From NCBI RefSeq assembly GCF_014200435.1, contig NZ_JACHBR010000001.1:558001-622000 (forward strand): a DNA stretch of 64,000 nt, given 5' to 3'. A program made the translations under genes and the position numbers. This document shows, piece by piece, positions 22,297 to 44,358 of this stretch (within the stretch, counting starts at the first letter, position 1; each line of letters begins with the position of its first letter). Below the pieces are notes generated by a model that did not search any database, was not told the DNA's origin, and saw only the letters and a list, made by a program, of their open reading frames with translations. Source of the DNA: Sphaerisporangium krabiense (GTDB lineage: Bacteria > Actinomycetota > Actinomycetes > Streptosporangiales > Streptosporangiaceae).

Positions 22297-22304
22297 GGGG
22301 AACG

Positions 22305-22334
22305 ACACTACATGCACACGCATTCAATGCACAA
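22305..22334 (-). promoter_or_regulatory. MFS gene promoter overlapping the MarR operator
   Basis: Minus-strand -10 TAGTGT (22305-22310) and a weak -35 TTGTGC (22329-22334), spacer 18. The -35 lies inside the palindrome at 22326-22339, so bound regulator would block polymerase. Confidence 0.5.
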
Positions 22335-22339
22335 GCATT
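22312..22339. promoter_or_regulatory. Two ATGC-N4-GCAT palindromes, probable MarR operators
   Basis: ATGCACACGCAT (22312-22323) and AATGCACAAGCATT (22326-22339) are near-identical palindromes 14-15 bases apart centre to centre. A further GTGCAT half-site lies at 22349-22354 and TGCATGC at 22364-22370, next to the MarR gene's own -10 box. Confidence 0.65.
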
Positions 22340-22370
22340 TAATTCGCGTGCATCTATTGTTCGTGCATGC

Positions 22371-22376
22371 TATAGT
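22371..22376 (+). promoter_or_regulatory. -10 box TATAGT of the MarR gene (leaderless)
   Basis: TATAGT, six bases, then ATG 22383. There is no room for a ribosome binding site after the expected transcription start. Confidence 0.6.
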
Positions 22377-22382
22377 CCGGTC

Positions 22383-28619: not shown

Positions 28620-28704
28620 CGCACCGGGCCGTCTCCGCCCGTGGCGGCGGGCTCCTGCGGTGAGCCGGTCGATCCCCGAGGGCGGCCGGGCTCGCCGAGA
28701 GGCG

Positions 28705-29511: not shown

Positions 29512-29692
29512 CTGCGACAACTCCCCGGACGGCCGTGCGACAGATTCTGTTCCACATGTTCCGGTGGGATGGCATCGGTCCCGTAATTCGTCCTTCGCAC
29601 ACGGGTGAACGTCACACCCATAAGAAAACGGTGAGGAAACCCCGTAAGAAATTTTAATGACCGATGACGCCGGACACCCGATTCGAGAAATT

Positions 29693-29721
29693 AACGTAAC
29701 CTATCCGAATGTGCATGTCAA
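29693..29721 (-). promoter_or_regulatory. Promoter upstream of the SARP gene
   Basis: Minus-strand -35 TTGACA (29716-29721, perfect), 17-base spacer, -10 TACGTT (29693-29698). It would give an untranslated leader of about 175 bases running through an unusually AT-rich stretch (about 29590-29720). The gap 29512-29797 holds no other feature. Confidence 0.65.
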
Positions 29722-29797
29722 CGCGCATTGATTTAGGGCCGGTCTGGTTCCGCGACCGATTATGCCGACCGCCGATATCGGCCGCGGCCAATGGGGC

Positions 29798-30994
29798 TCA
29801 CCCGGCCCGGGAGGCTTCGGCGGCGGGCTCGGTCACCGTCCTCGCGGCGGCCGGCCGCCTGGTGATCCGCAGGGACACGGCGAGCACGGCGAGTGCGGCC
29901 AGGCCGACCGCCAGCGCGGCGTAGCCCACTCCGTGCGCGCCCCCCAGCGTGAATCCCACGGCCCCCGCCACGCCTCCGGTGCTGATGCCGACATAGATCG
30001 TGCTCTGGTGGAGTCCGAGAACGAGCGGGGCGGACCCCGGCGCGGCGGCGGCGACCCGGATCTGCTGGGGAACGTTCACCATCCAGTGGAACACGCCCCA
30101 GACGACGGCGAGCGCCAGCGCGGCGAGGAAGGTCCCCGACAGCAGCGGGGCCGCCGTGGCGGCGACGACCAGCAGGGGCGCCGCGTACGTGATGGTCCTC
30201 GCGGGTCCGAGACGGTCGGTGAGGCGGCCGGTCAGAAGGTTTCCCGTCACCGCGCCGACGCCGAAGCTCAGCAGCACGAAGGACGTCTTCGCGGCGTCCC
30301 CGCCGGTCGCCTCCCGGGTGATCTGGTCGACGTAGGTGTAGACGGTCCAGCTCGTGCTCAGGCACAGCCAGGTCGCCATCAGGGTGATCAGCACCGCGGG
30401 CCGGGAGAGCGGCGCGAGCCGGGCCCGCAGCGAGGTCGCGGCCTGTCCCGCCAGCGGCGGAAGCGTGGTCGCGATGCCCGCCGCCGCGACCGCGGTGAGC
30501 GCGACGACGACCCAGAGGGTCGGCCGCCAGCCCACGTTCGCGCCGAGCCACGCCCCGAGGGGCAGGCCGAGCACGATCGCCGTGGTCAGGCCCCCGACCA
30601 CGGTCGCGGTGGCGCGTCCGCTCCGTTCGGGGGGAGCCATCGCGCGGGCCACGGCGAGGGCGTTGGCCGTGTACATCGACGCCCCCGCCCCGGCGACGAC
30701 GCGGCCGAGCATCCCCACCCAGTAGCCGGGCGCGACCGCGGTCAGCACGTTCCCGGCGGCGAACACGGTGAGGGCGGCCAGCAGCAGGGGGCGCGGCGAC
30801 CGGTGACCGGTCAGGGCGGCCAGCAGCGGGCCGCACACGGCGTAGGCGAGGGCGAACCCGGTGATCAGCCACCCGGCGGTGGTACGGCTCACCGTGAAGT
30901 CCCTCGCCATCGGGTCGAGGATCGGAGCGATGACGAAGGTGTCGACACCCATGGCGAAGTTGCCGAGTGCCAGGATGAGCAGGCGAAGACGCAT
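29798..30994 (-). CDS. MFS transporter, DHA1 drug exporter type
   Basis: 398 residues from ATG 30994, about 12 membrane helices. The N-terminal LALGNFAMGVDTFVIAPILDPMARDF is the AraJ/CmlR-like start of the 12-helix DHA1 group; GRVVAGAGASMYTANALAVARAM and GLPLGAWLGANVGWRPTLW hold the motif B and C-like residues. It sits between the oxidase/reductase pair and the SARP gene on one strand and is the best candidate exporter for the cluster product. Confidence 0.9.
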   Translation of the reverse strand: MRLRLLILALGNFAMGVDTFVIAPILDPMARDFTVSRTTAGWLITGFALAYAVCGPLLAALTGHRSPRPLLLAALTVFAAGNVLTAVAPGYWVGMLGRVVAGAGASMYTANALAVARAMAPPERSGRATATVVGGLTTAIVLGLPLGAWLGANVGWRPTLWVVVALTAVAAAGIATTLPPLAGQAATSLRARLAPLSRPAVLITLMATWLCLSTSWTVYTYVDQITREATGGDAAKTSFVLLSFGVGAVTGNLLTGRLTDRLGPARTITYAAPLLVVAATAAPLLSGTFLAALALAVVWGVFHWMVNVPQQIRVAAAAPGSAPLVLGLHQSTIYVGISTGGVAGAVGFTLGGAHGVGYAALAVGLAALAVLAVSLRITRRPAAARTVTEPAAEASRAG

Positions 30995-31093
30995 GATCGT
31001 CCTTTGTTCTGTCGCGGGTGGGCGGTCTGCCGGCCGGCGCGCGGCGCGCGCCGGCCGGTGGTGGGCCGGCGCGGTTCCCCGGCCGGCCCCGGG

Positions 31094-31720
31094 TCACCAG
31101 GTGGGCAGGAACTTCATGGCGGCCTGCGGGCGCAGGCCCAGCCGGGTGATGAGCTCGACGCAGAGCACCGCCATCTGCTCCAGGGCCCTGGCGTTGCGCA
31201 ACCCCCCGGAGTCCAGCGCGCGCAGTCCGGTCCGGTCCACGATCTCGATGACCGTGGCCTTGGCGGCGTCGTCGTCCGCGGCGACGAACACGTCCGGCTG
31301 GGCGTCGTCGATGCTCCCCGCCAGCAGGGCCGCGGCGCAGAGGGTGTTGAACGCCTTGACCACCGAGGTCCGCGGAGCCGCCCGCGCGAGCCGTTCGGCG
31401 ACGCTGAACGCGCCGTGCCGGTCCGGCCCGGCGGCGAAGCCGTCGAACGGGTTGGTGGTGTCCACCAGCACCAGGCCGGTCAGCCCGGAGCTGTGCGCGG
31501 TGACGAGGTCGAGGGCTTCGCGGTATCCGAGGGCGAGGGTGACGACGTCCGCGCGCAGCGCGGCCCGGACGTCGGTCACCATTTCGGCCCCCGTCTCCGC
31601 CGCGACCCGGATCGCGCGGTCGGCCCGCAGGTCCGTCAGGATGACCCGCTCTCCGGCGAGGACGTACCGGTGGGCGATCGCGCGGCCCATGGCCCCGGCT
31701 CCGATGACGCTGACCGTCAT
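31094..31720 (-). CDS. NADPH-dependent F420 reductase-like Rossmann protein
   Basis: 208 residues from ATG 31720, overlapping the stop of the preceding oxidase gene by ATGA, so the two are translationally coupled. The N-terminus VSVIGAGAMGRAIAHRY is an NADP-binding Rossmann loop; LVLVDTTNPFDGF and SVVKAFNTL follow the F420-dependent NADP reductase (NpdG/Fno) pattern. True members move hydride between NADPH and F420; here it may instead act on a pathway intermediate or feed the coupled FAD enzyme. Function in the cluster is unproven. Confidence 0.82.
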   Translation of the reverse strand: MTVSVIGAGAMGRAIAHRYVLAGERVILTDLRADRAIRVAAETGAEMVTDVRAALRADVVTLALGYREALDLVTAHSSGLTGLVLVDTTNPFDGFAAGPDRHGAFSVAERLARAAPRTSVVKAFNTLCAAALLAGSIDDAQPDVFVAADDDAAKATVIEIVDRTGLRALDSGGLRNARALEQMAVLCVELITRLGLRPQAAMKFLPTW

Positions 31721-33132
31721 CGCGCCACCGCGCAGCGGACCGCCGGAGGGATGTTGTGGTTGAGGCGGAACACGTTGTCCGGGTCGTACGCGGCCTTGAG
31801 CCCGGCCAGCCGCTCGTAGGTCCCCGGCGCGTAGGCCGCGCGCACGTCGTCGGGGGTCGCCGAGGCGTCCAGGAAGTTGAGGTACCGGCCTCCGGTGGAC
31901 CAGCGCCGCATCCGCTTCAGCAGCAGGTCGTCCGCGTGCCCGCGTCCGTCGCGTGGCCCGCCGGGCGCGACGGTGAACAGGCAGTACCGCGCCTCGCGGT
32001 TCCCCACGGCGTTGCCTCCCGCCGGCGCCCGCCCGAGCGCGCCGCCCAGATGCCGCAGTTCCACGAGCCCGAGGCTGCGGTCGGCTCCGGGGCCGGCGAC
32101 CCCGAGCAGGACGCCGGCCGCGTCCTGGTCCAGGTCGCGCGTCATCATGGTGCGTTCGTGGTAGGAGTACGGCCGCACCGGGTCCGCGTGAATGGACGCG
32201 ACGTCGGTGTAGGGCATCTCCGCGACGGTGTCCAGGACGCGCGGGGCGATGCCGCGTAACGGGGCGACCAGCGCCGCGCCGAGGTCCGCGGGGCCGGCGA
32301 AGGCGATCCGGACCTGCGTGAGGAAGCGACCGCGCAGCTCCGTCCTGATGCCGGGGTCGTCGGGCAGGCGCACGAGCGCGATCGAGGAGTTCATCTCCTC
32401 GGGAACCCCCGCCGTCCATTCCAGCCACCGCCCCAGCACCTCGGGCGCGGACGCGCCGGCGAAGGTCAGCGTCCCTCCGTACAGGCGGCTGACCGGCACC
32501 AGCCCGACCTCGATCGAGGTGACGACGCCGAAGTTCCCCTTCCCGCCGCGCAGGCCCCAGAAAAGGTCCGGCTCGCGCTCGGCGTCGACCTGGCGCGGGA
32601 CGCCGTCGGCGGTCACGATGTCGACGGCGCGCACGTGGTCGGCGGCGTAGCCGAACGTGCGGGCCAGCACCCCGAGCCCGCCGCCCAGCGTGTAGGAGAC
32701 GGCGCCGACGAGCGGGGACGAGCCGTTGAGCGGGGCCAGTCCGAACGCGGCGGCCTCGTGGATGACCTTCTCCCAGCGCACCCCGGCCTCGATGCGCGCG
32801 GTGCGCCGGTGCGGGTCGACGCGCAGGCCCGTCATCCGGCGGGTGGAGACCAGCACGGCGTCGTCGAGCGGCGCGGCGGCCCCGTGCCCGGTCGCCTGGA
32901 CCGCCACCGGCAGCCCGTGCGCGGTGGCGAAGCGCACGGCGGCCACCACGTCCCTGGTGCCGGTCACGCCGACGATCAGCCGCGGGCGGTGGTCGAGCAG
33001 GGTGTTGAACCCCTGCCGCTCGACGTCGTAGCCGTCCCGTCCGGGGAGGAACACCGGCCCGCGGACCTCCGCGGCGAGCGACGCCGGGTCGAGCGAACGA
33101 GCGGAAGCCACGCTCCGGACAGCGGTTCCCAT
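31717..33132 (-). CDS. FAD-linked oxidase, BBE type (copy 2)
   Basis: 471 residues from ATG 33132 (GAGAGG eight bases upstream); ATG 33138 adds two residues. Same build as copy 1: RLIVGVTGTRDVVAAVRFA, VQATGHGAAAP with the FAD-linking His83, no partner Cys (NGSSPLVGAVSYTLGGGLG), GLRGGKGNFGVVTSIEV, and here a proper BBE C-terminus VFRLNHNIPP. It is coupled to the F420-reductase-like gene and divergent from the LuxR regulator. The two oxidases share motifs closely enough to be paralogs, but they sit in separate transcription units, suggesting successive steps. Confidence 0.9.
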   Translation of the reverse strand: MGTAVRSVASARSLDPASLAAEVRGPVFLPGRDGYDVERQGFNTLLDHRPRLIVGVTGTRDVVAAVRFATAHGLPVAVQATGHGAAAPLDDAVLVSTRRMTGLRVDPHRRTARIEAGVRWEKVIHEAAAFGLAPLNGSSPLVGAVSYTLGGGLGVLARTFGYAADHVRAVDIVTADGVPRQVDAEREPDLFWGLRGGKGNFGVVTSIEVGLVPVSRLYGGTLTFAGASAPEVLGRWLEWTAGVPEEMNSSIALVRLPDDPGIRTELRGRFLTQVRIAFAGPADLGAALVAPLRGIAPRVLDTVAEMPYTDVASIHADPVRPYSYHERTMMTRDLDQDAAGVLLGVAGPGADRSLGLVELRHLGGALGRAPAGGNAVGNREARYCLFTVAPGGPRDGRGHADDLLLKRMRRWSTGGRYLNFLDASATPDDVRAAYAPGTYERLAGLKAAYDPDNVFRLNHNIPPAVRCAVAR

Positions 33133-33384
33133 GGTCATCGCCTCTCGTGAACAGGTGGCCGTTCGCCCGGACGTCCCGCCCGGGCCGAAGGGTTCGCAAC
33201 AGACACATGCATGGTCCGGCGGCGCCGGGCCGGCGCGGTATCCCGAGATCGGGCTGTTGCCGGATCGGACGTATCCCTCAAACGGGGGGTGTGCCGGCGG
33301 CCGGGGAGTCACGCACCATAGGGAGGGAACGCCGTGATTGCGCGCGAAGGGGCGCCAAGGGCGCCAAGGGGAGGGAACTCGCTC

Positions 33385-34539
33385 ATGAGCGGTAACGGCG
33401 GACTGCCCGTGGCCGTGGCGCGGAAGGTGACGGCACTGGCGCGCGAGCTCGACGAGGTGCCCGACGCGCTGACGCTGTTCTCGCGCGCCTCGGAGCACCT
33501 GCGCGCGATCGTCCCCTTCGACGCGGCGGTGTGGCGGGCGACCGACCCGATGACCGGCATGATGACCTCGCCGATCCGGGTGGAGAACCTCAGCCAGGAC
33601 GGCTGCTCGGTGTACTGGGAGTCCGAGCTGCTGACCGAGAACGTCAACCTCTTCAGCGACCTGGCGCGCGCCGAGGTCCCCGCGGCCGGGTTGCACGCGG
33701 CGACCGGCGGGCTGCCCGGTCGCAGCACCCTGTACCAGGCGTTCCTGCGGCCGCGCGGCCTCAAGGACGAGCTGCGCGCGGTGGCGCGGACGGACGGGCA
33801 CCCGTGGGGGCAGATCAGCCTGTTCCGCGCGGACGGCAACCGCGTCTTCGGAGCCGACGACCTGGCCGTCCTGCACCGGGTGTCGGCGATCATGGCCCGC
33901 CGGCTGCGGTCGTTCGCCGAACCGCGGGTGGACCCCGAGGCCGGGCCGACGCCCAGCGACGGGCTCGGCCCCGGGTTGCTGTGCTTCGACCCGTCGGGAC
34001 GGCTGGTGTCCATCAACGACGAGGCGCACGGCTTCCTGCGCGAGATCGCCGAGCTCGGCGCGGAACCGGCCAGTCCCACCGCCCTCGGCGTGACGGTGCC
34101 CGCGTGGATCCACAGCACGGTGAGCAAGGCCCGGGCCATCGCCGCGGGCCGGGACAAGGGATGCGCGCGCCTCAGGGTCCGGGGCCGGCACGGCCGGTGG
34201 CTGGTGTGCCACGCCTCCTGCCTGCGCGGCGCGGACGGCGAGCTGGGCGCCTCGGTGGTGGTGATCGAGCGCGCTCCGATCTCGGAGGTCGCGTCGTTGA
34301 TGGTGCGCGCGTACCAGCTCACCGACCGCGAACTGGAGATCACTCAGCTCATCGCGCGGGGCATGGGGACCGTGGAGATCTGCGAGAAGCTGTTCATCTC
34401 CCCGCACACGGTCCGCGACCACGTGAAGTCCATCTTCCAGAAGGTGCGGGTCACCAGCCGCGGCGAGCTCGTCGCCAAGCTGTTCACCGAGCACTACGCC
34501 CCGCTGAGCGAGGGCAGGGAACAGCGCGTCTTCGGCTGA
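33385..34539 (+). CDS. LuxR-family transcriptional regulator
   Basis: 384 residues from ATG 33385 (GGGAGG ten bases upstream). GTG 33334 has an equally good GGGAGGG and would add 17 residues, so the start is open. The first 200 residues look like a GAF-type sensor (LARELDEVPDALTLFSRASEHLRAIVPFDAAVWR; LFRADGNRVFGADDLAVLHRVSAIMARRLR), followed by a PAS-like part (LLCFDPSGRLVSINDEAHGFL). The C-terminus is a LuxR helix-turn-helix: LTDRELEITQLIARGMGTVEICEKLFISPHTVRDHVKSIFQKVRV. No receiver or kinase partner is present. It stands between the two arms of the cluster and is divergent from oxidase 2. Confidence 0.9.
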   Translation: MSGNGGLPVAVARKVTALARELDEVPDALTLFSRASEHLRAIVPFDAAVWRATDPMTGMMTSPIRVENLSQDGCSVYWESELLTENVNLFSDLARAEVPAAGLHAATGGLPGRSTLYQAFLRPRGLKDELRAVARTDGHPWGQISLFRADGNRVFGADDLAVLHRVSAIMARRLRSFAEPRVDPEAGPTPSDGLGPGLLCFDPSGRLVSINDEAHGFLREIAELGAEPASPTALGVTVPAWIHSTVSKARAIAAGRDKGCARLRVRGRHGRWLVCHASCLRGADGELGASVVVIERAPISEVASLMVRAYQLTDRELEITQLIARGMGTVEICEKLFISPHTVRDHVKSIFQKVRVTSRGELVAKLFTEHYAPLSEGREQRVFG

Positions 34540-34560
34540 GACGTCCCCCGCCCCCACCGG

Positions 34561-36201
34561 TCACGGCCTCGGCGGCCAGCCGATCTCGTCCCAGAAACGC
34601 AGCTGCCCGGCCTTCCCTGTCCTCGCCACGCGCGGCCCGCCGGGCTCCCCGAGCACCAGGGTGCTGGGCCGGTCAGGAGAGAACACGGGCCACCGCGGCA
34701 GCGATCCCGACGACGGCGTCCCCGTACGGGCGAAGGACGCGACGACGTCGATGAACGCGTCGCTCACCCGCCGTCGCACGGGCCCGTCGCCGCACGCCGC
34801 GACGTTCTCGGGAAGGCCGTAGGTCCCGAAGAGGAACTTCGAGGTCGCCTCGTGCGGGGTGCCGGACCACGGGGCGCGGAACGGGAACGCGAACTCCATG
34901 ACGTACTGCGGTGCGGCGCTCGCGTGGGCGTGCCGTTCGCTCAGCCGCACGATCGGGTGACGGAACAGGGCGTCACCCCAGACCTCCGTCCACAACGAGA
35001 ACGGGTCGCCCGGCAGGCCGTCAGCGGCCGCCGCCGCCCGGTAGGCGCCGACGCACTCCTCCACCAGGCGCTCCGGCACCCGGTACAGCCCTTTGCCGAG
35101 CACGCGCCGCACCGCCGTCCGCAGGGAGGCGTCGTCGACCGGCGGCGGCGACGGGATCGGCGAGCCCGGCCCGGTGTAGAAGGATCCCTCGGTGCGCGTG
35201 TAGATCACCAGGAGGGGCCGTCCGGGCGTGGGCGACCGGTGGTCGAAGTCGCGCATCCACCGCCCGTCCGGCACCGGCCCCCGGTACTCGCGGCCGCTCG
35301 GCACCACGTGACCGTCCGGCGGACCGGCGAACATCCGCCGCCACTCCCGGTCGATCGCGGCCGCCGGCAGCCCGCGCAGACCCGCGACGGTGACGCCGAG
35401 CCGGGAGGCCAGCGTCTCGAACGCGCGCACGGAGTCGCGCCGGGTGAACGCCGTGGCCGGGCTCCAGACGTGACAGGCGCTGATGGGGATCGCCCGGCGC
35501 ACGAGGTCGCGTGTCTCGGGCAGGAGCGTGAGCTGCCAGGCCGAGGCGCCGCCGGCCGACGTGCCGCACAGCGTGACGTTGTGCGGGTCGCCGCCGAAGG
35601 CCGGCGCGTTGTCCCTGACCCAGCGAAGGAGCGCGATCTGGTCCTGCAGGCCCCAGTTCGCGCACGACCCGGTGGCGTCGTCCCCCAGTTCCTCGTGCAG
35701 GCCGAACCCGAAGGGGCCGAGCCGGTAGTTGAAGGTGACGACGACCAGGTCTCCCCGGACGGCGAGCCGCGCGCCGTCGTAGGTGGGCAGGCTCCCGGAG
35801 CCGACCTGCCAGCCGCCGCCGTGGACGTAGACGAGCACCGGGCGGCGGCCATGCGGGTCCGGGGTCCAGGCGTCGGCGTAGAGGGCGTCCTCGCGGCTGG
35901 AGGCGTCGTCCTGCTGGAGGAACGCGGGAGCGGGACGGCTCGCGTCGCGGACCGCCCGCCAGGGGCGCGGGGGCCTCGGCGAGGCGAAGCGCAGCGGCCC
36001 GACGGGCGCGGCGGCGTACGGCAGGCCCCGGAACACGGCGCACCCGCCGGCGCGCACGCCCGCCACCGGTCCCGCGGTGGTGCGCACCACCACGGGACCG
36101 GTCGCCGCGGCCCGGCCCGGCCACCCGGCGGGGGGTACGGCCGCGGCGGCCGTCGCGCCCGCCGCCGCGAGGAACGCGCGCCGCGGCCATCTCGGCGCCA
36201 T
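34561..36201 (-). CDS. Tat-exported type-B carboxylesterase
   Basis: 546 residues from ATG 36201, one base after the preceding stop codon. The N-terminus RRAFLAAAG is a twin-arginine signal. The alpha/beta hydrolase core has FRGLPYAAAP (57-66), oxyanion-hole HGGGW (127-131), NYRLGPFGF and nucleophile elbow GTSAGG (Ser215). The usual EDCLYLN signature reads EDALYAD, so one conserved Cys is lost. Family members hydrolyse carboxylic esters, occasionally amides. As last gene of the seven-gene biosynthetic run, an extracytoplasmic trimming, transfer or detoxifying step is possible; no such gene is known to me from the gri or nsp clusters. Confidence 0.88.
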   Translation of the reverse strand: MAPRWPRRAFLAAAGATAAAAVPPAGWPGRAAATGPVVVRTTAGPVAGVRAGGCAVFRGLPYAAAPVGPLRFASPRPPRPWRAVRDASRPAPAFLQQDDASSREDALYADAWTPDPHGRRPVLVYVHGGGWQVGSGSLPTYDGARLAVRGDLVVVTFNYRLGPFGFGLHEELGDDATGSCANWGLQDQIALLRWVRDNAPAFGGDPHNVTLCGTSAGGASAWQLTLLPETRDLVRRAIPISACHVWSPATAFTRRDSVRAFETLASRLGVTVAGLRGLPAAAIDREWRRMFAGPPDGHVVPSGREYRGPVPDGRWMRDFDHRSPTPGRPLLVIYTRTEGSFYTGPGSPIPSPPPVDDASLRTAVRRVLGKGLYRVPERLVEECVGAYRAAAAADGLPGDPFSLWTEVWGDALFRHPIVRLSERHAHASAAPQYVMEFAFPFRAPWSGTPHEATSKFLFGTYGLPENVAACGDGPVRRRVSDAFIDVVASFARTGTPSSGSLPRWPVFSPDRPSTLVLGEPGGPRVARTGKAGQLRFWDEIGWPPRP

Positions 36202-36202
36202 C

Positions 36203-38062
36203 TCAGCGGACCCTGCCGGCCGGCCGGACGCCGTCCTCGCGGAACCACAGGTCCAGGTCGATGAGGCGCTCCAGGACGGCGCGTGCGCTGTAGGGCCCGC
36301 CGATGGCGAACGCGCCCGGCGGGCGGTCCAGCAGCCCGCGCAGCCCGCGGCGGTCGACCAGGTCGAAGACCGGGGAGTCGCTCGCGGCGAGCGCGGCGAC
36401 GCGCTCCCGTAACGCGGACTCGTAGGCCACGTCCTGCGTGGAGGGATAGGGACTCTTCTTGCGCTCGACGACGGACCGCGGCAGCAGGTCCTCGGTGGCC
36501 GCGCGCAGCAGGCTCTTCTCCCTGCCGTCGAAGGTCTTCATCGCCCAGGGCGCGTTGAAGACGTACTCGACGAGCCTGTGGTCGCAGAACGGGACGCGGA
36601 CCTCCAGCCCGGTCGCCATGCTGACGCGGTCCTTGCGGTCCAGCAGGAAGGTGACGAAGCGCGTCAGGTGCAGGTAGCCGATCTCGCGCATGCGCGCCTC
36701 GTCCGGCGACTCGCCGTCCAGGTCGGGGATCTCCGCGATGGCCTCCTTGTACCGCTGCTCGATGTGGCTCTCCAGCTCCAGGGCGTCCCACAGCCCGATC
36801 GCGCGCAGCGCCTCCTGGCCTCCGGCCCGCCGGAACGGAAGGTGCCAGGGGAACGTCGCCGACCGGAGCACCGCGGGGTCGTGGAAGTGGTTGTAGCCGC
36901 CGAACAGCTCGTCGGCGGACTCGCCGGACAGCGCCACGGTGGACCTCTTGCGTACCGCCTGGAAGAGCAGGTAGAGGGAGTACTCCATGTCCCCGGTGAC
37001 CGTGGGCAGGTCCAGTGCCCTGCGCACCGCCCCGCGCACGCCCGGGCTCAGCAGGTCGGCGTTGTCCAGGACGATGTCCTCGTGGTCGGCGCCGATGTGC
37101 CGCACCGCGTCCGCGACGTACGGCGCGTCCGGGCTCTCCCACACCGCGTTCGGCCGGAAGCGTTCGCTGTGCCCGGCGAAGTCGACGGAGAAGGTGCGCA
37201 CCTTCCTCCCCGTCTCGTCGGCCAGGCCGCGCGCGGCCAGCGCGGTCACCGCGCTGGAGTCCAGGCCGCCGGAGAGCAGCGAACACAGCGGCACGTCGGC
37301 GATGAGCTGCCGCCGGACGGTGTCCTCCAGGATCTCGCGGACGGTGCGGACGGTGGTGGCGAGGTCGTCGGTGTGCCGGCGCGACTCGAGCCGCCAGTAC
37401 CGGGTCTTGCGCACACCGCCGCGGGAGACGCGCACGATCCCGCCCGGCCGCACCGCGCGCACGTCGCGCAGGACGGCGTGCTCCGGTGTCATGGTGAGCC
37501 CGAACACCTCGCGCAGGCCGTCCAGGTCCACCACCGCCTCGGCCGCCGGATGGGCGAGGATCGCCTTGTGCTCCGAGCCGAACAGGACGCCGTCCTCGGT
37601 GACGTGGTAGAAGAGCGGCTTGACCCCCATCCGGTCGCGGACCAGCAGCAGTTCCTCGGTCCGCGCGTCCCAGATCGCGAAGGCGAACATCCCGTTCAGG
37701 CGCTCGGCGAAGCCCACGCCCCACTCCAGGTACGCGCGCAGGACGACCTCGGTGTCACTGGCCGTGCGGAAGCCGTGGCCCCGGCGGCGCAGTTCGTCAC
37801 GCAGCTCGCGGAAGTTGTACACCTCGCCGCTGTAGGTGATGACCGCCGAGACCTGCCCGGCGTCCTCGGCCGCCATCGGCTGCGCGCCGCCCTCCAGGTC
37901 GATGACGGCCAGCCGCCGATGCCCCAGCGCGGCGTGCGGGCCGCGCCACACCCCGCCGGCGTCGGGTCCGCGAAGGGCCATCGTCGCGACCATGGCGTCG
38001 AGTTCGCCGGGATGCCTCGTCAGATCTCGCGAGTAGGAGACCCAGCCGGCTATTCCACACAT
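36203..38062 (-). CDS. Glutamine-dependent amidotransferase, asparagine synthetase type (NspN-like)
   Basis: 619 residues from ATG 38062, chosen because the class II glutaminase needs Cys2 at the mature N-terminus (MCGIAGW); ATG 38071 would bury it. LRGPDAGGVW, ITYSGEVYNFRELR and DRMGVKPLFY belong to the glutaminase domain; the ATP pyrophosphatase loop LLSGGLDSSAV and LSGESADELFGGYN lie in the synthetase domain. In the nsp cluster of Streptomyces murayamaensis (from memory) NspN of this family amidates 3-amino-4-hydroxybenzoate to the benzamide. The setting between a copper oxidase and 3,4-AHBA genes argues for the same job here rather than asparagine supply. Confidence 0.9.
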   Translation of the reverse strand: MCGIAGWVSYSRDLTRHPGELDAMVATMALRGPDAGGVWRGPHAALGHRRLAVIDLEGGAQPMAAEDAGQVSAVITYSGEVYNFRELRDELRRRGHGFRTASDTEVVLRAYLEWGVGFAERLNGMFAFAIWDARTEELLLVRDRMGVKPLFYHVTEDGVLFGSEHKAILAHPAAEAVVDLDGLREVFGLTMTPEHAVLRDVRAVRPGGIVRVSRGGVRKTRYWRLESRRHTDDLATTVRTVREILEDTVRRQLIADVPLCSLLSGGLDSSAVTALAARGLADETGRKVRTFSVDFAGHSERFRPNAVWESPDAPYVADAVRHIGADHEDIVLDNADLLSPGVRGAVRRALDLPTVTGDMEYSLYLLFQAVRKRSTVALSGESADELFGGYNHFHDPAVLRSATFPWHLPFRRAGGQEALRAIGLWDALELESHIEQRYKEAIAEIPDLDGESPDEARMREIGYLHLTRFVTFLLDRKDRVSMATGLEVRVPFCDHRLVEYVFNAPWAMKTFDGREKSLLRAATEDLLPRSVVERKKSPYPSTQDVAYESALRERVAALAASDSPVFDLVDRRGLRGLLDRPPGAFAIGGPYSARAVLERLIDLDLWFREDGVRPAGRVR

Positions 38063-38083
38063 CGCAGCCAACCTTTCCGTGAG

Positions 38084-39001
38084 TCAGGCGTACCTGTAGT
38101 ACGGGGTGTGGTCGATGAGGTCGCGAACCCTCTTGGTGTGCCACGGGAAGAGCGACGTGGTGACGTCGGGGACCTCCGGGGTCGGCTCCACGGGAAGGTA
38201 GTGCGGCACGCCGGGGTGGCGTGCCTGCCAGTCCGCCCAGCACTTGTCGATGAAGCAGTGGTGGAGGAAGAACACCGGGTCGTTGGGCGAGGCGATGTAC
38301 ATCATGTGCCCGCCCACCCACTGGTGGCCGGCGCCGTGCAACTTGCCGGCGGCCGGCTCCCACGGGAAGTTCGTGTACCCCTCCAGATGGTTGCGGAAGC
38401 TGTTGTACGGAGCCACCCCGCCCGAGGTGTAGTCCCAGGGGTCGCAGTCGTACACGGGCAGGTCCAGGGTCTGGCCCAACTGCTCGGGGGTGGGAAGCCG
38501 GGAGATCTTCTGTCCGATGCGGCGGATCAGGAACTCGCGGTCGTCGACGGTGTAATGGCCGTTGAGCGCCGGGTCCTCGGTCCCGGCGGGCTGCACGTTG
38601 ACCTTCAGCTTCCAGCCGTTGGGGTAGGCGAACGGGCCGGTCATGACCATGCCGTCCTCGGGCCTGCCGTCGCCGCCCATGAAGTCGTCGGCCCATAAGG
38701 GGGAGTCCCTGGACTGGTCCGTGGTCCAGTCCCAGTAGGGAAGCGTGACCGACGGGTCCACCCGGCGGAGCTGGTTCTCCAGCTCCAGCAGGTATTGGCG
38801 GTGCCAGGGCAGGAAGCCGGGATTGATGTGCCCGACCCGCTTCCCGGTGTCCTTGTCGATGTAGTCCTTGGAGTTGACGTCGACGTGCAGCTGCACGAAC
38901 CGGTCGTAGACGCCGCGGCGCTTGATCTCCAGGACGGCGCCGATGAAACGGCGCCGCTCCTCCGGAGTCATGTCCAGGTGGTTCTTGCGAATGCGGCCCA
39001 T
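38084..39001 (-). CDS. Tyrosinase-like binuclear copper oxidase (GriF/NspF-like)
   Basis: 305 residues from ATG 39001. CuA ligands are His39 (QLHVDVNS), His58 and His67 ([15 protein letters not shown]); CuB ligands are His222 and His226 ([12 protein letters not shown]) and His248 ([10 protein letters not shown]). LPYWDWT and the CuB context are standard bacterial tyrosinase. Two cysteines (249, 254) flank the last ligand where MelC2 has Ala and Leu, and a short insertion lies between the first two CuA ligands. Relatives in 3,4-AHBA clusters are o-aminophenol oxidase (GriF, phenoxazinone formation) and NspF (amino to nitroso). There is no signal peptide of its own; the neighbouring chaperone carries one. 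Confidence 0.9.
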
Positions 39002-39018
39002 GGCTGCCGTGTCCTTTC

Positions 39019-39396
39019 TCACGCCGTGTGGGCGCCGTGCCCGGCCCCGAGATCCAGCAGCTTCGCGCCGTCCAGCTCGTTCACCGCGGCCCGCGCGGCC
39101 TGCAGGGGGCTGCGGAGGATCTCGTAGTGACACATGGAGCTCAGGTAGGCGCCCTCGCCGAGCCTCATCAGGTGCAGCCGCGTGCCGTCCACGTAGACCT
39201 CGGGACCGGACGCCTTCTCGTGGACCTCTATGGCGCGGCCCTTGTACCGCTCCGCGTACACGGGCGCGGAGTGAGCGGCCCGGGGGTCCGCGGCCGCAGG
39301 GCCGTCCACGGCCCTGAGGTAGCCGATGGTTCCGATGCCTCCCACGCCGGCCGCCAGCGCGGCCCCCCGCAGGATGACCTCTCGTCTGTTGAGCAT
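39019..39396 (-). CDS. MelC1-like copper chaperone for the copper oxidase (GriE/NspE-like)
   Basis: 125 residues from ATG 39396. The N-terminus [16 protein letters not shown] is a twin-arginine-like export signal. The body [58 protein letters not shown] matches the caddie protein MelC1, which inserts copper into tyrosinase and covers its active site; the usual His-rich tract is missing. Met and Cys in SSMCHY may handle Cu(I). It is directly upstream of its oxidase (17 bases), as melC1 precedes melC2. Both proteins may leave the cell together through Tat. Confidence 0.9.
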
Positions 39397-39464
39397 GCGA
39401 ACCGTCCTTCTCGCGATGGGACCGGGAGCGGCGCCGGCTTCGGGGCCGCTCCCGGAGCCGGAGG

Positions 39465-40571
39465 TCATTTCTCCAGGCAGAACTCGCTGATCGGATAACC
39501 GACGTGCCGGTCCTCGCTCGGCAGGTAGCCCAGCACCACGTCGCCCGGCCTGAGCTCGGTGCTGTTGAGGACGGCGCCGCCGGGCCCGAGGACCCGGACG
39601 TGCCAGTCGTCCTGGAGGATCAGGTTGACCTCCTGGCCGTTCGGGGCGACCGCGTCGATGGAGATCAGCGGGCGGGTCTCGATCTTGACGCGGCCGACGG
39701 TGACCATCCGGGTCTGGCCCTTGACGTCCACGGCCAGCACCTTGCTGCCGGCCTTCAGCTCGCTGAGGTAGTGCGTGCGTTCGTCCTTGGACAGGGTGTA
39801 GGAGTGGATCGCGCCGGCGTTGACCCGGAAGGGACGGGTCGGCATGTAGGGCAGAGGGTGGGTCTCGCTGACGCACAGGATCATGCCCTTGGAGTGCGAG
39901 CCCACCAGGATGCCCTCGTCCTCCCGGAAGTACGTGCAGGTGTCCACGCAGGCGCGCTCGCCCATGCCGATGTGCTCGGTCCTGCGCACCTCCAGCTCCA
40001 CCAGGCCGAGGGCCGGGGTCTCGGCCTGGGCGGCGGCCTTGAGCCGCGCCGCGTCGCCGACCTGGGCGGGGGCCATCATGACGCCGTCCGATCCGTGCTC
40101 GAGCACGCCGAAGATGATCTCGGCCTCGGGCACGTCCTGGGCGACGGTGACGATGTTGCCGCTCGCCCGGGCCGCCGCCGCGATCACGATCTCCAGCGGG
40201 ATCTTGGTCGGGTCGCGGAACAGCAGCACGCTCCACTTCTCGGTGCGGGCCGCGTCGTTGGCCTCCTCCAGCGTCGGCGCGTCGACGATCTCCACGAACC
40301 GGCCGAACTCGACGTCCGGGTGCCGCACGGCGAGCTCCGCCGGCGTGGTCCCGTGGGTCCTCGGATCGACGATGACGACCGAGGCGTCGCCGAACTCGGC
40401 CGGCATCTCCCCCGGGCGGGGGAACAGCACCTTGGTGACCGTCGGGGGCAGGTCCGCCAGATCGGCGGTGTCGTCCGCCACGACGCCGTCGAGGCGGTGG
40501 TGCAGGGCCTCCTGCAGGATCGCCTCGCGGGCCTCGCCCAGGGAGCGGATGTCGAGCCAACTCAGCTTCAT
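39465..40571 (-). CDS. 3-Dehydroquinate synthase II-like enzyme, 3-amino-4-hydroxybenzoate synthase (GriH/NspH-like)
   Basis: 368 residues from ATG 40571; GAGGAG eight bases upstream. The protein carries the DHQ synthase II signature set: [85 protein letters not shown] (given as consecutive conserved blocks), and the C-terminal beta domain ending in [11 protein letters not shown]. In Streptomyces griseus GriH turns the C7 aldol product of GriI into 3-amino-4-hydroxybenzoate. Pairing with a GriI homologue 39 bases upstream supports this over the archaeal shikimate role. Confidence 0.92.
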
Positions 40572-40610
40572 CGCAAGTCTCCTCAAGTGGTCGGGGGGAT
40601 CGGCCGGCGT

Positions 40611-41423
40611 CTACGCCGCCGGTGACGTCACGGCGCCCACGCCGGTGAGCCGGTGCGGGTGGATCCGGTCGGCGATCTTCGCCGCCATCACGCCGGGCTC
40701 GGGAGCGAGAAAGATGTTGCGGCCCATCGCGACGCCGGCGGCCCCGCCGCGCAGCGCGTCGTCCACGTACGCCAGCACGTTGTCGGCGTCGGGATCCCGC
40801 GGACCGCCGACGACGACGACCGGGATCGGCGACAGGCTCGTGACGGCCCGCATGTCGGAGACCGCCTCGGGGCAGACGGTCTTGACGATGTCGGCCCCGA
40901 GGTCCGCGGCGAGCGTGACCGCGTGCGCGACCAGCTCGGCCTTGCGCGGGTCGGCGATGTGCGGGCCGCGCGGGTACATCATCGCCAGCAGCGGCACGTT
41001 CCAGCGGTCGCACGCCTCGGCGACGGCCGCCATGTCGGCGATCTGCCGCCGTTCCTCCTCCGACCCGAGGTTGACGTGGACGCTGACCGCGTCGGCGCCG
41101 AGCCTGAGGCTCTCCTCGACGCTGGCGACCAGGTACTTGGCGTTGGGATCGGGCGCGTGCACGGTGCTCGCGCTGAGGTGCACGATGAGGGACATGCGCG
41201 TGAACCGCTCGGGGGCGACGTAGCGCAGGCTTCCCTTGTGCAGGACCACCGCGTCGACGCCGTTGCCGGCGAGCAGGCCGAGCAGCCGGTCGAGATCGCG
41301 TCCCCCGGTCACCGGCCCCTCGGTCACCGAGTGGTCCAGCGGGACGATGAAGAGCCCGTCGTCCCCGCCGCGGTGCATCCGGCGCAGCCGCACCTCACGA
41401 GCGAACGGATTGCTCACCCTCAT
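40611..41423 (-). CDS. DhnA-type class I aldolase, C7N precursor synthase (GriI/NspI-like)
   Basis: 270 residues from ATG 41423. The TIM-barrel shows FIVPLDHSVTEGP, DAVVLHKGSLR, DAVSVHVNLGSEEE, LLAMMYPRGP and the Schiff-base lysine in GADIVKTVCPE (Lys181), then VVVVGGPR and GGAAGVAMGRNIF for phosphate binding. Archaeal relatives make the shikimate precursor ADH from aspartate semialdehyde; GriI condenses aspartate-4-semialdehyde with dihydroxyacetone phosphate for 3,4-AHBA. The aspartokinase gene just upstream would raise the semialdehyde supply. Confidence 0.92.
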   Translation of the reverse strand: MRVSNPFAREVRLRRMHRGGDDGLFIVPLDHSVTEGPVTGGRDLDRLLGLLAGNGVDAVVLHKGSLRYVAPERFTRMSLIVHLSASTVHAPDPNAKYLVASVEESLRLGADAVSVHVNLGSEEERRQIADMAAVAEACDRWNVPLLAMMYPRGPHIADPRKAELVAHAVTLAADLGADIVKTVCPEAVSDMRAVTSLSPIPVVVVGGPRDPDADNVLAYVDDALRGGAAGVAMGRNIFLAPEPGVMAAKIADRIHPHRLTGVGAVTSPAA

Positions 41424-41462
41424 GGTCTTCTCTCCTCACTTGTCCGCCGGGTGGTGGCAGGG

Positions 41463-42749
41463 TCAGACCGGCACCGGGGAGGTGAACCCCGCGCCGGCGC
41501 CGAGCGACTCGAGGCCGAACTCCCGGTGCAGCAGCCGCGCCGCCCGCGCGGCGGCCCCGGCGGGCACGGTCATCGAGATGCGCAGTTGCGAGGTCGCGAC
41601 CGCGTTCGTGGCGATGTCGGCGCGGCGCAGGCGCCGCAGGGCGCGCGCCGCGCACTCCGGGCTCGTGAGCAGCCCTTGGCCGACGACGGAGACCTTGGCG
41701 ACGCCGCCGTCGATCTCCGGCGGGCCGCCGTGGAAGGCGGAGGTGACGAACGCCCGCAGCGCGTCGACGTCCGCGTCCGCCACCGTCAGTCCGACCCGGA
41801 TCCCGTCGTCCACGTCGTGCAGCGTCGCCATGTCGACGAAAATGGATTCGCGGGCGAAGAAATCGAACAACTGTGCCGTCGCCTCCGCGTCGGGCAGAAG
41901 CAGGCCGACGCGGGCGACCTTGGTGTCGACCGCGACGCCGGTGACGAATCCGCTGGACTCCAGCATGTCTCTCCTGTCGTCGTCACGGGCCGCGATCACG
42001 CTTCCCGGACCCGGTCTCGTCGAATGGAGAACGTGAATGTCCACGCCGTGCACGGCCGCGAGATCGACGGCACGGGAGTGCAGGACCTGGGCGCCCGCCA
42101 ATGACATTTCGGCCATCACGTCCACGTCGATGAAAGGGACGCGCGAGGCCGACGGGATGAGCCTGGGGTCGGCGGTGTAAACGCCGTCGACGTCCGTGTA
42201 GATCTCACACCGGCCGGCGCCGAGCTCCGCGGCGATCGCGACCGCCGTGGTGTCGGAGCCGCCCCGTCCCAGCGTGATGAGGTCGAGCCGCTCGTTCATC
42301 CCCTGGAACCCGGCGACCACGGCGACCGCCTCCGAGGCGAGCACGCGGGCGATCGGCTCGGTGTCGACGGCGACGATGACCCCGCGTCCGTATGCTCCGG
42401 TGGCGAGGATGCCGGTCTGGACGCCGCTCAGGGAGTGGGCGGGAACCCCGGCTCCGCGCAGGGCGAGGGCCAGCAGCGCCGCCGACGTCGTCTCGCCCGT
42501 GCCGAGGAGCTGGTCGACCTCGCGGCCGGTTCGCGCCGCGCCGATCTCACCCGCGAGCCGGAGCAGGTCGTCGGTCGTGTCCCCACGGGCCGAGACGACG
42601 ACGACAACGGAGTTTTCCACGGCGCTCTCGCGCACGCGGTTCGCCACGGCCTGGATCTGCTCCAGCGTGGCGAGTGAACTTCCACCGTATTTCTGAACGA
42701 TAGGAACTCTGAGCGAACTCCACTGTTCTGTTCCGTGCGAGCGAGGCAT
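41463..42749 (-). CDS. Cluster-encoded aspartate kinase
   Basis: 428 residues from ATG 42749 (GAGGGAG upstream); the in-frame starts 42770 and 42782 lack a ribosome site. Kinase domain: VQKYGGSSLA, VVVVSARGDTTDDLL, GRGGSDTTAVAIAAELGAGRCEIYTDVDGVYTADPR. Two ACT domains follow (GVAVDTKVARVGLL; VAKVSVVGQGLLTSPECAARALRRL). It phosphorylates aspartate, the first step to aspartate semialdehyde. As first gene of the 3,4-AHBA run it is presumably a dedicated, perhaps feedback-relaxed copy; the second ACT domain keeps few of the consensus inhibitor-site residues, but this needs an alignment. No asd gene is next to it. Confidence 0.9.
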   Translation of the reverse strand: MPRSHGTEQWSSLRVPIVQKYGGSSLATLEQIQAVANRVRESAVENSVVVVVSARGDTTDDLLRLAGEIGAARTGREVDQLLGTGETTSAALLALALRGAGVPAHSLSGVQTGILATGAYGRGVIVAVDTEPIARVLASEAVAVVAGFQGMNERLDLITLGRGGSDTTAVAIAAELGAGRCEIYTDVDGVYTADPRLIPSASRVPFIDVDVMAEMSLAGAQVLHSRAVDLAAVHGVDIHVLHSTRPGPGSVIAARDDDRRDMLESSGFVTGVAVDTKVARVGLLLPDAEATAQLFDFFARESIFVDMATLHDVDDGIRVGLTVADADVDALRAFVTSAFHGGPPEIDGGVAKVSVVGQGLLTSPECAARALRRLRRADIATNAVATSQLRISMTVPAGAAARAARLLHREFGLESLGAGAGFTSPVPV

Positions 42750-43025
42750 CGGCAGCTCCCTCTTTTCCATCAACGAGGACAACTCTGCCGAAGTACCGCA
42801 TCACACGTATATCAAGAAAATATTAGCTAATAGCGCAAACTCCGATTTACCACGCCATAACGGCGGAACGCACTCCTCGTGCGGCGGCCTCCCGGCCCGG
42901 AACGCGCTGGATGGTTCGCCTCCGCCGGTATTCCCGGGCAGGGCCGACGGTCATATCCGAGGTATAAAGCCGTATGTGCTCGTATCTACCCGGTTAACGG
43001 AATAGTGGCGCGTGTTACGTGTGGT
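42750..43025. other. Intergenic region upstream of the aspartokinase run
   Basis: Between the aspartokinase start and the deoA terminator. The stretch 42790-42860 is strikingly AT-rich and holds the palindrome at 42821-42832; a second AT-rich patch (about 42950-43010) reads GGTATAAAGCC and TTAACGGAATAG. The promoter of the seven-gene run must lie here, but no clean -35/-10 pair stands out. No small gene was seen. Confidence 0.5.
42821..42832. promoter_or_regulatory. Perfect palindrome TATTAGCTAATA, operator candidate
   Basis: A 12-base perfect palindrome about 72 bases upstream of the aspartokinase start, in a GC-poor island of an otherwise GC-rich window. It suits a dimeric regulator; which one is unknown. 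Confidence 0.5.
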
Positions 43026-43054
43026 GCCGCGCGCCCGCGACGAGGGCGCGCGGC
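43026..43054 (-). terminator. Terminator hairpin after deoA
   Basis: A perfect 11-bp stem GCCGCGCGCCC/GGGCGCGCGGC (43026-43036, 43044-43054) with a 7-base loop, 17 bases past the deoA stop codon. Confidence 0.75.
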
Positions 43055-43071
43055 GGTGGAAGCGCCGCCGG

Positions 43072-44358
43072 TCAGGCGGTGACGCGGTCGATCACCAAGG
43101 GCAGCAGGGTCGGGTCCGCCTGGGTCCCGACCTCGTAGGCGCCCTCCAGCGCCTCCAGGGCCCGGGGGAAGCGGCCCGGGTCGTCGGCGTGCAGGGTGAG
43201 CAGCGGCCGGCCCTCCTGGACGGTGTCGCCGGGCTTGGCGTGCAGGGTCACCCCGGCCCCCGCGGAGACCGCGTCCTCCTTGCGGGCGCGCCCGGCTCCG
43301 AGGCGCCACGCCGCGAGCCCGACCGCGTAGGCGTCCAGCCGGGACAGCACGCCGGACGCGGGCGCGGCGACCTCAACGGTCTCGGCGGCCACGGGCAGCG
43401 GCGCGCCGGGGTCTCCGCCCTGGGCGCGGATCATGCGCCGCCAGGAGTCCATCGCCGAGCCGTCCTTCAGCGCGGTCTCGGGGTCCTTGCCGGACACCCC
43501 GGCGGCGGCGAGCATCTCGCGGGCGAGCCGCACGGTCAGCTCCACCACGTCGGACGGCCCGCCGCCCGCCAGCACCTCGACCGACTCGGCCACCTCCAGG
43601 GCGTTGCCGACGGCCAGGCCGAGGGGGCGGTCCATGGCGGTGAGCAGCGCGACGGTGGCCACCCCGTGGTCGGTGCCGAGGTCGACCATCGTGCGCGCCA
43701 GCTCGCGTGCCATGGTGGTGTCCTTCATGAACGCGCCGGAGCCGACCTTGACGTCCAGCACGAGCGCGCCCGTGCCCTCGGCGATCTTCTTGGACATGAT
43801 GGACGAGGCGATGAGCGGGATGGACTCCACGGTGCCGGTGACGTCGCGCAGCGCGTACAGCTTCTTGTCGGCGGGGGCGAGGCCGTCCCCGGCCGCGCAC
43901 ACCACCGCGCCCGCCTCGCGCAGCACGGCGAGCATCTCGTCGTTGGACAGGGACGCCCGCCAGCCGGGGATGGACTCCAGCTTGTCGAGCGTGCCGCCGG
44001 TGTGGCCGAGGCCGCGGCCGGAGAGCTGCGGGACGTAGGCCCCGCAGGCGGCGACGAGCGGCGCCAGCGGCAGGGTGATCTTGTCGCCGACGCCGCCGGT
44101 GGAGTGCTTGTCGGTGGTCGGGCGGTCCAGGCCGGACCAGTCCATGCGCGAGCCCGAGCGGATCATGGCGTCGGTCCACCGGCCGATCTCGCCGCGCTCC
44201 ATGCCGCGCAGCAGGATCGCCATGGCCAGCGCGGACATCTGCTCGTCCGCGACCTCGCCCCGGGTGTAGGCGTCGACCACCCAGGCGATCTGCTCGGCGG
44301 ACAGCGCGCGGCCGTCCCGTTTGGTGCGGATGACGTCGATCGCGTCCATGAACTCCAT
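43072..44358 (-). CDS. deoA: Thymidine phosphorylase
   Basis: 428 residues from ATG 44358; ATG 44349, three codons in, is just as possible. Signatures: VIRTKRDG, DEQMSALAMAILLRGM, DKHSTGGVGDKITLPLAPLVAACGAYVPQLSGRGLGHTGGTLDKLE (conserved as short blocks with the family motif SGRGLGHTGGTLDKLE), and VLDVKVGSGAFMK. It splits thymidine or deoxyuridine to base and deoxyribose-1-phosphate. It is last in the nucleoside operon, 37 bases after cdd. Confidence 0.95.
   Translation of the reverse strand: MEFMDAIDVIRTKRDGRALSAEQIAWVVDAYTRGEVADEQMSALAMAILLRGMERGEIGRWTDAMIRSGSRMDWSGLDRPTTDKHSTGGVGDKITLPLAPLVAACGAYVPQLSGRGLGHTGGTLDKLESIPGWRASLSNDEMLAVLREAGAVVCAAGDGLAPADKKLYALRDVTGTVESIPLIASSIMSKKIAEGTGALVLDVKVGSGAFMKDTTMARELARTMVDLGTDHGVATVALLTAMDRPLGLAVGNALEVAESVEVLAGGGPSDVVELTVRLAREMLAAAGVSGKDPETALKDGSAMDSWRRMIRAQGGDPGAPLPVAAETVEVAAPASGVLSRLDAYAVGLAAWRLGAGRARKEDAVSAGAGVTLHAKPGDTVQEGRPLLTLHADDPGRFPRALEALEGAYEVGTQADPTLLPLVIDRVTA

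Follow-up and report, generated by a model that had tools for sequence, protein, structure and literature searches.

The 64-kb stretch of DNA analyzed here (the window), from a soil-type actinobacterium, contains an inserted island that very probably carries an nsp-type gene cluster, i.e., one leading to 4-hydroxy-3-nitrosobenzamide as in Streptomyces murayamaensis (nsp, AB530136). The island combines the features by which such a cluster is recognized: an enzyme pair of the GriI/GriH type for 3-amino-4-hydroxybenzoate (3,4-AHBA), an NspF-type oxidase with its caddie, and an AsnB-type amidotransferase within the operon. On the minus strand, positions 34561-42749 hold seven intact reading frames head to tail, separated from kinase to esterase by 39, 39, 68, 17, 21, and 1 bases (Table 1). 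A sequence-only reading had described this one-strand run, with gaps of 1-68 bases, and had named its gene families; the run is as claimed and the families are borne out by Pfam and NCBIfam matches. The seventh gene of the run, the esterase, had been given no role. As a full unit, however, the run was drawn too short, as a SARP activator, an MFS exporter, an F420-reductase-like protein, a FAD oxidase and a LuxR regulator (28705-34539) are also part of the cluster. Family searches covered all 12 island genes with Pfam and 10 of the 12 with NCBIfam. The NCBIfam models of the ferroverdin and bagremycin proteins (fev/bag) are the best family matches for several of them, yet all these matches score under the curated cut-offs, and the cluster proteins are therefore classed by sequence as relatives of the bag/fev proteins outside those narrow families.

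Table 1. Features of the island (positions in the window; E-values from family or structure searches).
Feature	Position	Strand	Best match
Whole inserted island holding the nsp-type cluster, 14,439 bp	28623-43061	.	Comparison with congener G221
SARP-family activator (NspR/GriR/FevR-type)	28705-29520	-	Pfam BTAD 8e-38 + Trans_reg_C
MFS exporter, probably for pathway intermediate or product	29798-30994	-	Pfam MFS_1 1e-50
NADPH:F420 reductase-like oxidoreductase	31094-31720	-	TIGR01915 npdG 2e-22, under family cut-off
FAD-dependent BBE-type oxidase (NspA/GriA/FevA-type)	31717-33138	-	NF041226 BagK_FevA1 1e-164
LuxR-family regulator (NspT/GriT/FevT-type)	33409-34539	+	NF041232 BagY_FevT 8e-139
Carboxylesterase, Tat-like signal	34561-36201	-	COesterase 3e-79
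AsnB-type glutamine amidotransferase, NspN-like (predicted)	36203-38062	-	Asn_synthase 4e-89 + GATase_7
o-Aminophenol oxidase (type-III copper), predicted C-nitrosation	38084-39001	-	BagH-FevF 3e-142; PDB 9T62 8e-183
MelC1-like copper caddie (NspE/GriE/FevE-type), Tat-like signal	39019-39396	-	MelC1 4e-17; BagZ-FevE 6e-28
GriH/NspH-type 3,4-AHBA synthase, DHQ synthase II family	39465-40571	-	DHQS-II/BagC-FevH NF041224 1e-210
GriI/NspI-type aldolase (aspartate semialdehyde + DHAP, predicted)	40611-41423	-	DhnA aldolase/BagB-FevI NF041223 8e-123
Aspartate kinase, pathway-specific precursor supply (predicted)	41463-42749	-	PRK06635 2e-113

The borders of the island are defined by congener G221 (94-96% identical), where the sequence of window positions 1-28622 directly adjoins that from 43062 onward, so that the island is a single insertion. 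It is missing at this site in all seven congeners inspected (of 10), and nucleotide homology to Microbispora siamensis (80-86%) spans 28704-42824 with a gap at 29543-29802; the gene set was apparently acquired from elsewhere. A second FAD oxidase gene (27267-28619, plus strand) was rejected as a cluster member, being outside the insertion and also present in congener G221. At the left border, a remnant of the 3'-end of a deoA-like gene scores 61 as opposed to at most 56 for 1986 random pieces; it is degenerate and no proof of a mechanism. The kinase starts with the ATG at 42749, preceded by GGGAG. The start of the SARP gene could be either the TTG at 29520 or the ATG at 29433, and that of the FAD oxidase was placed via reading frame and homologues, with coding extending upstream.

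Related loci were sought by viewing at most about 10 kb to the left and right of GriH genes, for the best 80 of 117 GriH relatives; of the 23 other genomes of the order with a GriH-family match, all but G030, G065, G079, and G333 were covered at length. The cluster set recurs in Microbispora siamensis, S. melanogenes, Streptomyces sp. CBMA152, Streptomyces sp. ERV7, and genome G981. It is carried by four Streptomyces, one of which (Streptomyces sp. ERV7) lacks a whole esterase, the gene having shrunk to its signal part. The SARP gene occurs in every nsp-type locus seen, as does the F420-reductase-like gene, which is also found in most gri-order loci, and the MFS proteins of nsp-type loci are about 75-86% identical. 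Here and in M. siamensis the kinase-to-esterase block precedes the LuxR/FAD/F420/MFS/SARP block, whereas the Streptomyces relatives have the reverse order. The likeness to nsp noted in the sequence-only reading extends to gene order, as the Streptomyces arrangement T-A-x-MFS-R-AK-I-H-E-F fits the nsp accession order BAJ08165-BAJ08174 (PMC6692506, Table 1). That table also lists nsp counterparts for the regulators, the FAD oxidase, the aldolase, the synthase, the caddie, and the oxidase; nsp orf2, marked “not similar” to the fev transporter in the same table (PMC6692506), is equated with the island MFS gene by position. The island differs from nsp in its reversed blocks and in its host, which belongs to the family of Microbispora.

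By analogy with characterized relatives, the pathway would start with the aspartate kinase, which would raise the supply of aspartate semialdehyde. The aldolase would condense this compound with DHAP and the synthase would cyclize and aromatize the aldol product to 3,4-AHBA. The AsnB-type enzyme would then activate the carboxyl group with ATP and amidate it with glutamine-derived ammonia, giving 3-amino-4-hydroxybenzamide. Once the caddie has loaded two coppers into the o-aminophenol oxidase, the latter is predicted to convert the amino group to a nitroso group, and the resulting 4-hydroxy-3-nitrosobenzamide would be a green Fe(II) chelator. SARP and LuxR proteins are the likely regulators and the MFS protein the likely exporter. 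Not everything fits this scheme: the FAD oxidase, the F420-reductase-like protein and the esterase stand outside its steps, the substrate of the amidotransferase is not readable from sequence, and its nearest solved relative transfers hydroxylamine, not ammonia.

The kinase shares 38% identity with its nearest other homologue in the genome and leads the operon, and for these reasons a role as a primary-metabolism gene was set aside. The aldolase finds its best PDB relative in MJ0400 (5e-62); a PDB search with the GriH-type synthase gave no useful relative. For the aldolase/synthase pair, the alternative of a shikimate-type locus was tested against the claim of a 3,4-AHBA type, and the claim held: of the 117 GriH relatives found, the best 80 (all named) were kept, and each of these 80 has a GriI-type aldolase in its locus. 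In the GriH tree, the island synthase groups with those of other amidotransferase-bearing loci (SH-aLRT 91).

The oxidase is closest in the PDB to 9T62 (SmNspF). All six copper-ligand histidines (39/58/67/222/226/248; residues per PMC12982950) are kept, as are the three loop insertions that occur in o-aminophenol oxidases and are absent from tyrosinases (PMC12982950), the protein aligning without gaps to 9T62 through PL1-PL3. It carries Asn43, the residue tied to nitroso formation and described as the activity selector of o-aminophenol oxidases in PMC12184298, together with the Gln227 and His247 of SmNspF and not the Val227 and Asn247 of SgGriF (PMC12982950). The protein thus has the sequence hallmarks of an o-aminophenol oxidase (EC 1.10.3.4), and a nitroso-forming activity is predicted. 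The oxidase of S. melanogenes is nearly identical to SmNspF (714 bits, 305 residues). Gln227 is found in six of six distinct amidotransferase-bearing loci versus none of 26 others, although these loci probably form one clade. The caddie and the esterase both have Tat-like signals at their N-termini (that of the esterase reads MAPRWPRRAFLAAAGATAAAAVPP, and three other genomes have similar ones on the esterase), so the final oxidation may occur outside the cytoplasm. The amidotransferase, which begins MCGIAGW, follows the oxidase gene in six of six nsp-type loci from two families, and within about 10 kb of a GriH gene it was found only in loci with nsp-type neighbors. The nsp-type interpretation of the earlier reading is thus supported by both enzymes. 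In the S. murayamaensis cluster, the corresponding gene is presumably that of NspN.

For comparison, the grixazone (gri) cluster of S. griseus (AB259663) has seven homologous genes in common (PMC6692506, Table 1) and, as described in PMC10179220, contains a carboxylic acid reductase, GriC/GriD; no GriC/GriD-type, AMP-binding or carboxylate reductase family was found among the 12 island genes. Unlike the island, gri-order loci showed no amidotransferase of its type over the roughly 10 kb viewed around GriH. The earlier reading had left open a nitroso or a phenoxazinone end, and the latter is the less likely. Phenoxazinones would arise if the oxidase made quinone imines that couple, and SmNspF and SgGriF both also form them in vitro (PMC12982950), but this outcome is quite unlikely here since a GriC/GriD-type gene is absent from the 12 genes of the island, an amidotransferase stands where carboxylate reduction would, and residues 227/247 are NspF-like; furthermore, the oxidase clusters with those of other amidotransferase-bearing loci (100/99). 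In ferroverdin and bagremycin biosynthesis, 3,4-AHBA is condensed with vinylphenol, according to the account in PMC6692506. No tyrosine ammonia-lyase or bagremycin synthetase family was found among the 12 island genes, and fev-order loci differ in having Thr227 oxidases and in showing no island-type AsnB over the same span of about 10 kb around GriH.

The role of the amidotransferase invites further alternatives. It exceeds the asparagine synthase cut-off (TIGR01536) and shares 58-61% identity with eight AsnB orthologues from the genus, as would be expected of an ordinary asparagine synthetase lying in the cluster by chance; the product would then be 4-hydroxy-3-nitrosobenzoate or another 3,4-AHBA derivative, and SmNspF does oxidize 3,4-AHBA itself well (PMC12982950). 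This is highly improbable given its constant position after the oxidase gene, its own five-member clade (100/99) apart from the genus orthologues, and three more full-length AsnB homologues elsewhere in the genome. Its best PDB relative is the hydroxyamidotransferase 7YLZ (2.5e-197), which we take to be TsnB9. Such AsnB-like enzymes (TsnB9/SaHAT) act on free carboxylates, and one uses free benzoic acid directly (PMC13418202), so that the island enzyme could form 3-amino-4-hydroxybenzohydroxamic acid as in the trichostatin and benzohydroxamate pathways and the final chelator would be a nitrosophenol hydroxamate. We regard this as very unlikely, as the route requires a glutamine amide oxygenase pair (TsnB6/7 or SaAmOx/SaAmOx-AS), of which family searches found none among the 12 island genes, and 7YLZ sits on a long branch whose kinship to the island clade is without support. 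The amide of the nsp-type pathway thus stays the preferred product of this step, and the precedent of an AsnB-type relative that works on free benzoic acid speaks for it too.

Regulation was considered as well. The sequence TTAGGTTAGSCTAACCTAA, taken as the iron-box consensus, had no match with up to three mismatches across the 64-kb window, and control by iron through such a site is therefore not supported. The search for SARP-binding direct repeats in three intergenic stretches gave two-copy repeats only, none convincing. On a more speculative note, it is conceivable, though rather doubtful, that the pathway is compartmentalized: the amide would be made inside the cell, the copper oxidase exported on its Tat-targeted caddie, and the nitroso chelator formed only outside, where the co-operonic Tat-type esterase would also work, e.g., on an ester or masked chelator. 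In this reading, Gln227 would be tuned to the carboxamide tail, and not to a carboxylate as proposed from kinetics, so that one residue would report the tailoring enzyme, and the 14-kb island would pass as a single piece from one actinobacterial family to another.

Enzymatic C-nitrosation is rare and attracts interest in biocatalysis and in work on iron chelators. Streptomyces already provides known examples of this pathway type, and the island is a further, well-delimited case whose exact borders make it ready for cloning. The six amidotransferase-bearing loci provide a test set in which a single residue of the oxidase, Gln227, accompanies the tailoring enzyme. The pathway also brings along two redox proteins and an esterase of secreted type, to which the cited papers assign no step, and the predicted nsp-type C-nitrosation now extends beyond Streptomyces to two genomes from the family of Microbispora.

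The seven-gene run that a sequence-only reading had placed here, with the logic of 3-amino-4-hydroxybenzamide or nitrosobenzamide biosynthesis, is real: all seven genes are present and intact, with gaps of 39, 39, 68, 17, 21 and 1 bases, and the comparison with gri and nsp genes made there was correct on every main point. Pfam and NCBIfam identify an aspartate kinase, a DhnA/DeoC-type aldolase (nearest model BagB/FevI), a DHQ synthase II-type protein (BagC/FevH), a MelC1-like copper chaperone or caddie (BagZ/FevE), a tyrosinase-family oxidase (BagH/FevF), an AsnB-type amidotransferase and a type-B carboxylesterase. Every match to the Bag/Fev models lies below the curated cut-off, and the cluster proteins are thus relatives rather than members of those narrow sets. 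Past the esterase lie five extra genes: two for regulators, of the LuxR (BagY/FevT) and SARP activator types, one for an FAD oxidase (BagK/FevA1), one for a protein resembling F420 reductase and one for an MFS transporter. Family searches of the island's 12 genes returned no integrase or transposase match. Aldolase and synthase had been read as a 3,4-AHBA pair, unless their relatives lay in shikimate loci. A profile built from nine GriH-type proteins found 117 relatives in a named genome collection; among the best 80 of these, none points to a shikimate locus and all 80 have a GriI-type aldolase in the GriH locus, which marks the two as the 3,4-AHBA pair.

The borders of the island are sharp. 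In the congener G221 (94–96% identical), window positions 1–28622 join directly to 43062 onward, so that the cluster constitutes one 14,439-base difference. It is also absent at this site in G214, G216, G219, G220, G222 and G223, the inspection covering seven of the ten congeners (all but G215, G217 and G218). In five of these six, no more than about 230 bases separate window ~22.73 kb from 43.07 kb, while G216 carries an inverted piece about 170 bases from 43.07 kb; all six therefore also lack, at this site, the rpoB-like gene and the second FAD oxidase that flank the island on its left. A family search for GriH-type genes in all ten congeners matched only G215, with two distant proteins 48% and 41% identical to that of the window. 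Homology to the M. siamensis cluster (80–86%) has nearly the extent of the island. The simplest reading is a gain in the S. krabiense lineage, although the cluster may instead have been lost in all other lineages.

Features at and around the island
Feature	Position	Strand	Remark
Insertion hot spot	22730-43070		between a MarR/MFS pair and a deoA-like gene
MFS piece inverted in G216	20921-22733		
rpoB-like gene	23399-26800	-	second, complete RNA polymerase beta-subunit gene
Other rpoB copy	C1:760397-763765		92% identical to the rpoB-like gene
Second BBE/FAD-type oxidase	27267-28619	+	directly outside the island
Island	28623-43061		
Degenerate deoA-like 3' end	28644-28739		left island border
deoA-like gene 3' end	43064-43166		
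M. siamensis homology	28704-42824		gap 29543-29802
ERV7 esterase remnant	L052:14407-16026		

In six congeners the hot spot is near-empty; in G221 it contains the rpoB-like block, and in the window this block together with the cluster. The rpoB-like gene, shared with G221 at this site and absent there in the six other congeners, differs from the other copy in the rifampicin-binding stretch and resembles the rpoB(R) duplicates of Nonomuraea. Its neighbor, the second FAD-type oxidase, is a distant relative of the cluster's own. The degenerate deoA-like end is possibly a trace of the island's entry.

The island AsnB-type protein retains the N-terminal MCG, which carries the nucleophile of class-II glutamine amidotransferases, and SGGLDSS. 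Three other full-length relatives in the genome are 51–60% identical, with partial matches on a second contig; the island type forms a clade (100/99) separate from eight AsnB orthologues of the genus, which are 58–61% identical. Among solved structures, the hydroxyamidotransferase 7YLZ is its closest relative, and an enzyme of this sort is described as using ATP to act directly on benzoic acid in its free form (PMC13418202), which makes amidation of 3,4-AHBA by an AsnB-type enzyme plausible. The same two observations raise the rival reading of a hydroxamate instead of an amide, but the partner oxygenases of that route are missing from the island.

The window oxidase has SmNspF (9T62) as its best solved relative, and the S. 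melanogenes oxidase is almost the same protein as SmNspF. Described positions are the ligands His39, His58, His67, His222, His226 and His248, the activity selector Asn43, and Gln227/His247 in SmNspF as against Val227/Asn247 in SgGriF (PMC12982950); nitroso formation by SgGriF is reported to be controlled by Asn43 (PMC12184298). The window oxidase keeps the six ligands, Asn43, Gln227 and His247. Asn43 occurs in 23 of 23 distinct oxidases compared and is thus no marker of the nsp type. Gln227 occurs in 5/5 distinct amidotransferase loci of this first set and in 0/18 others, which show Val227 with Asn247 (gri-order loci and the locus L060), Thr227 with His247 (fev-order loci), Val227 with His247 (two Nocardiopsis loci and L081) or Arg227 (L082). 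A second sample of nine further distinct genomes (1/1 with the amidotransferase, 0/8 without) brings the count to 6/6 versus 0/26. Since the five of these oxidases placed in the tree form one clade (100/99) and the sixth is 97–99% identical to two of them, the association represents a single evolutionary event rather than six. A role of Gln227 in serving the amide is thereby predicted but not proven; the residue has been attributed to carboxylate preference (PMC12982950).

The oxidase of L082 (Streptantibioticus rubrisoli), encoded beside GriI/GriH, sits on a long branch, carries Gly234 as well as Arg227, has a loop 1 that is shorter by two residues, and falls outside the assigned oxidase types. 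Two Streptomyces loci, L193 and L196, pair an oxidase (Ala227 or Arg227) with a caddie and show no GriH/GriI match in the 20 kb covered; these oxidases possibly act on other substrates.

Tyrosinases exit the cell on MelC1. Of the 23 distinct oxidase loci, all but L070 have a caddie that passes the coverage filter, and pattern matching finds a twin-arginine and hydrophobic N-terminus in 21 of these 22; the remaining one, from Streptomyces sp. ERV7 (L052), shows MLNRRDVIKRGAVVATVA. The same matching found no such stretch at the oxidase N-termini. Tat-like signals are also present on the esterase in all four loci examined, those of the window, M. siamensis, S. melanogenes and Streptomyces sp. CBMA152. 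With low confidence, these signals suggest that nitrosation and the esterase step may occur outside the cytoplasm. In ERV7 only the signal part of the esterase gene is left, the rest reading as unrelated sequence, and the esterase is thus not needed to keep a cluster.

Within the stretch examined, an oxidase accompanies 22 of the best 80 of 117 GriH relatives, and an AsnB-type gene four of the 22: M. siamensis (L050), ERV7, S. melanogenes (L053) and CBMA152 (L054). Of 392 Streptomyces genomes sampled separately, 12 have the oxidase (E <= 1e-110) and two of these are nsp-type, ERV7 and G981; the G981 locus shares 93.7% identity with its S. melanogenes counterpart. When 394 genomes were drawn evenly across the class, five had such an oxidase, two being nsp-type (S. 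krabiense and M. siamensis); the genus of M. siamensis has the cluster in 1/15 genomes. Across the order, 24 of 345 genomes, S. krabiense included, match the GriH family, and M. siamensis alone has an amidotransferase near GriH among 19 neighborhoods examined from the 23 others. Titles and abstract openings of open-licence literature yielded no nsp-type cluster outside Streptomyces, a report elsewhere being possible; a different 3,4-AHBA product, bagremycin A, is reported from Micromonospora (PMC11093986).

The precedent is the nsp cluster of S. murayamaensis (PMC6891451; PMC11608171). Streptomyces members read LuxR (-), FAD oxidase, F420-reductase-like, MFS, SARP, kinase, aldolase, synthase, caddie, oxidase, AsnB and esterase, ERV7 likewise except for its lost esterase. 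The listed accessions are nspT (BAJ08165), nspA (08166), orf2 (08168), nspR (08169), nspI (08171), nspH (08172), nspE (08173) and nspF (08174; PMC6692506 Table 1). Read from these numbers, the Streptomyces order fits nsp, and 08167 and 08170 would be the genes for the F420-reductase-like protein and the kinase. The two gene blocks are swapped, by contrast, in M. siamensis and in the window. The cluster type is already known, and what is new is this cleanly delimited, rearranged locus.
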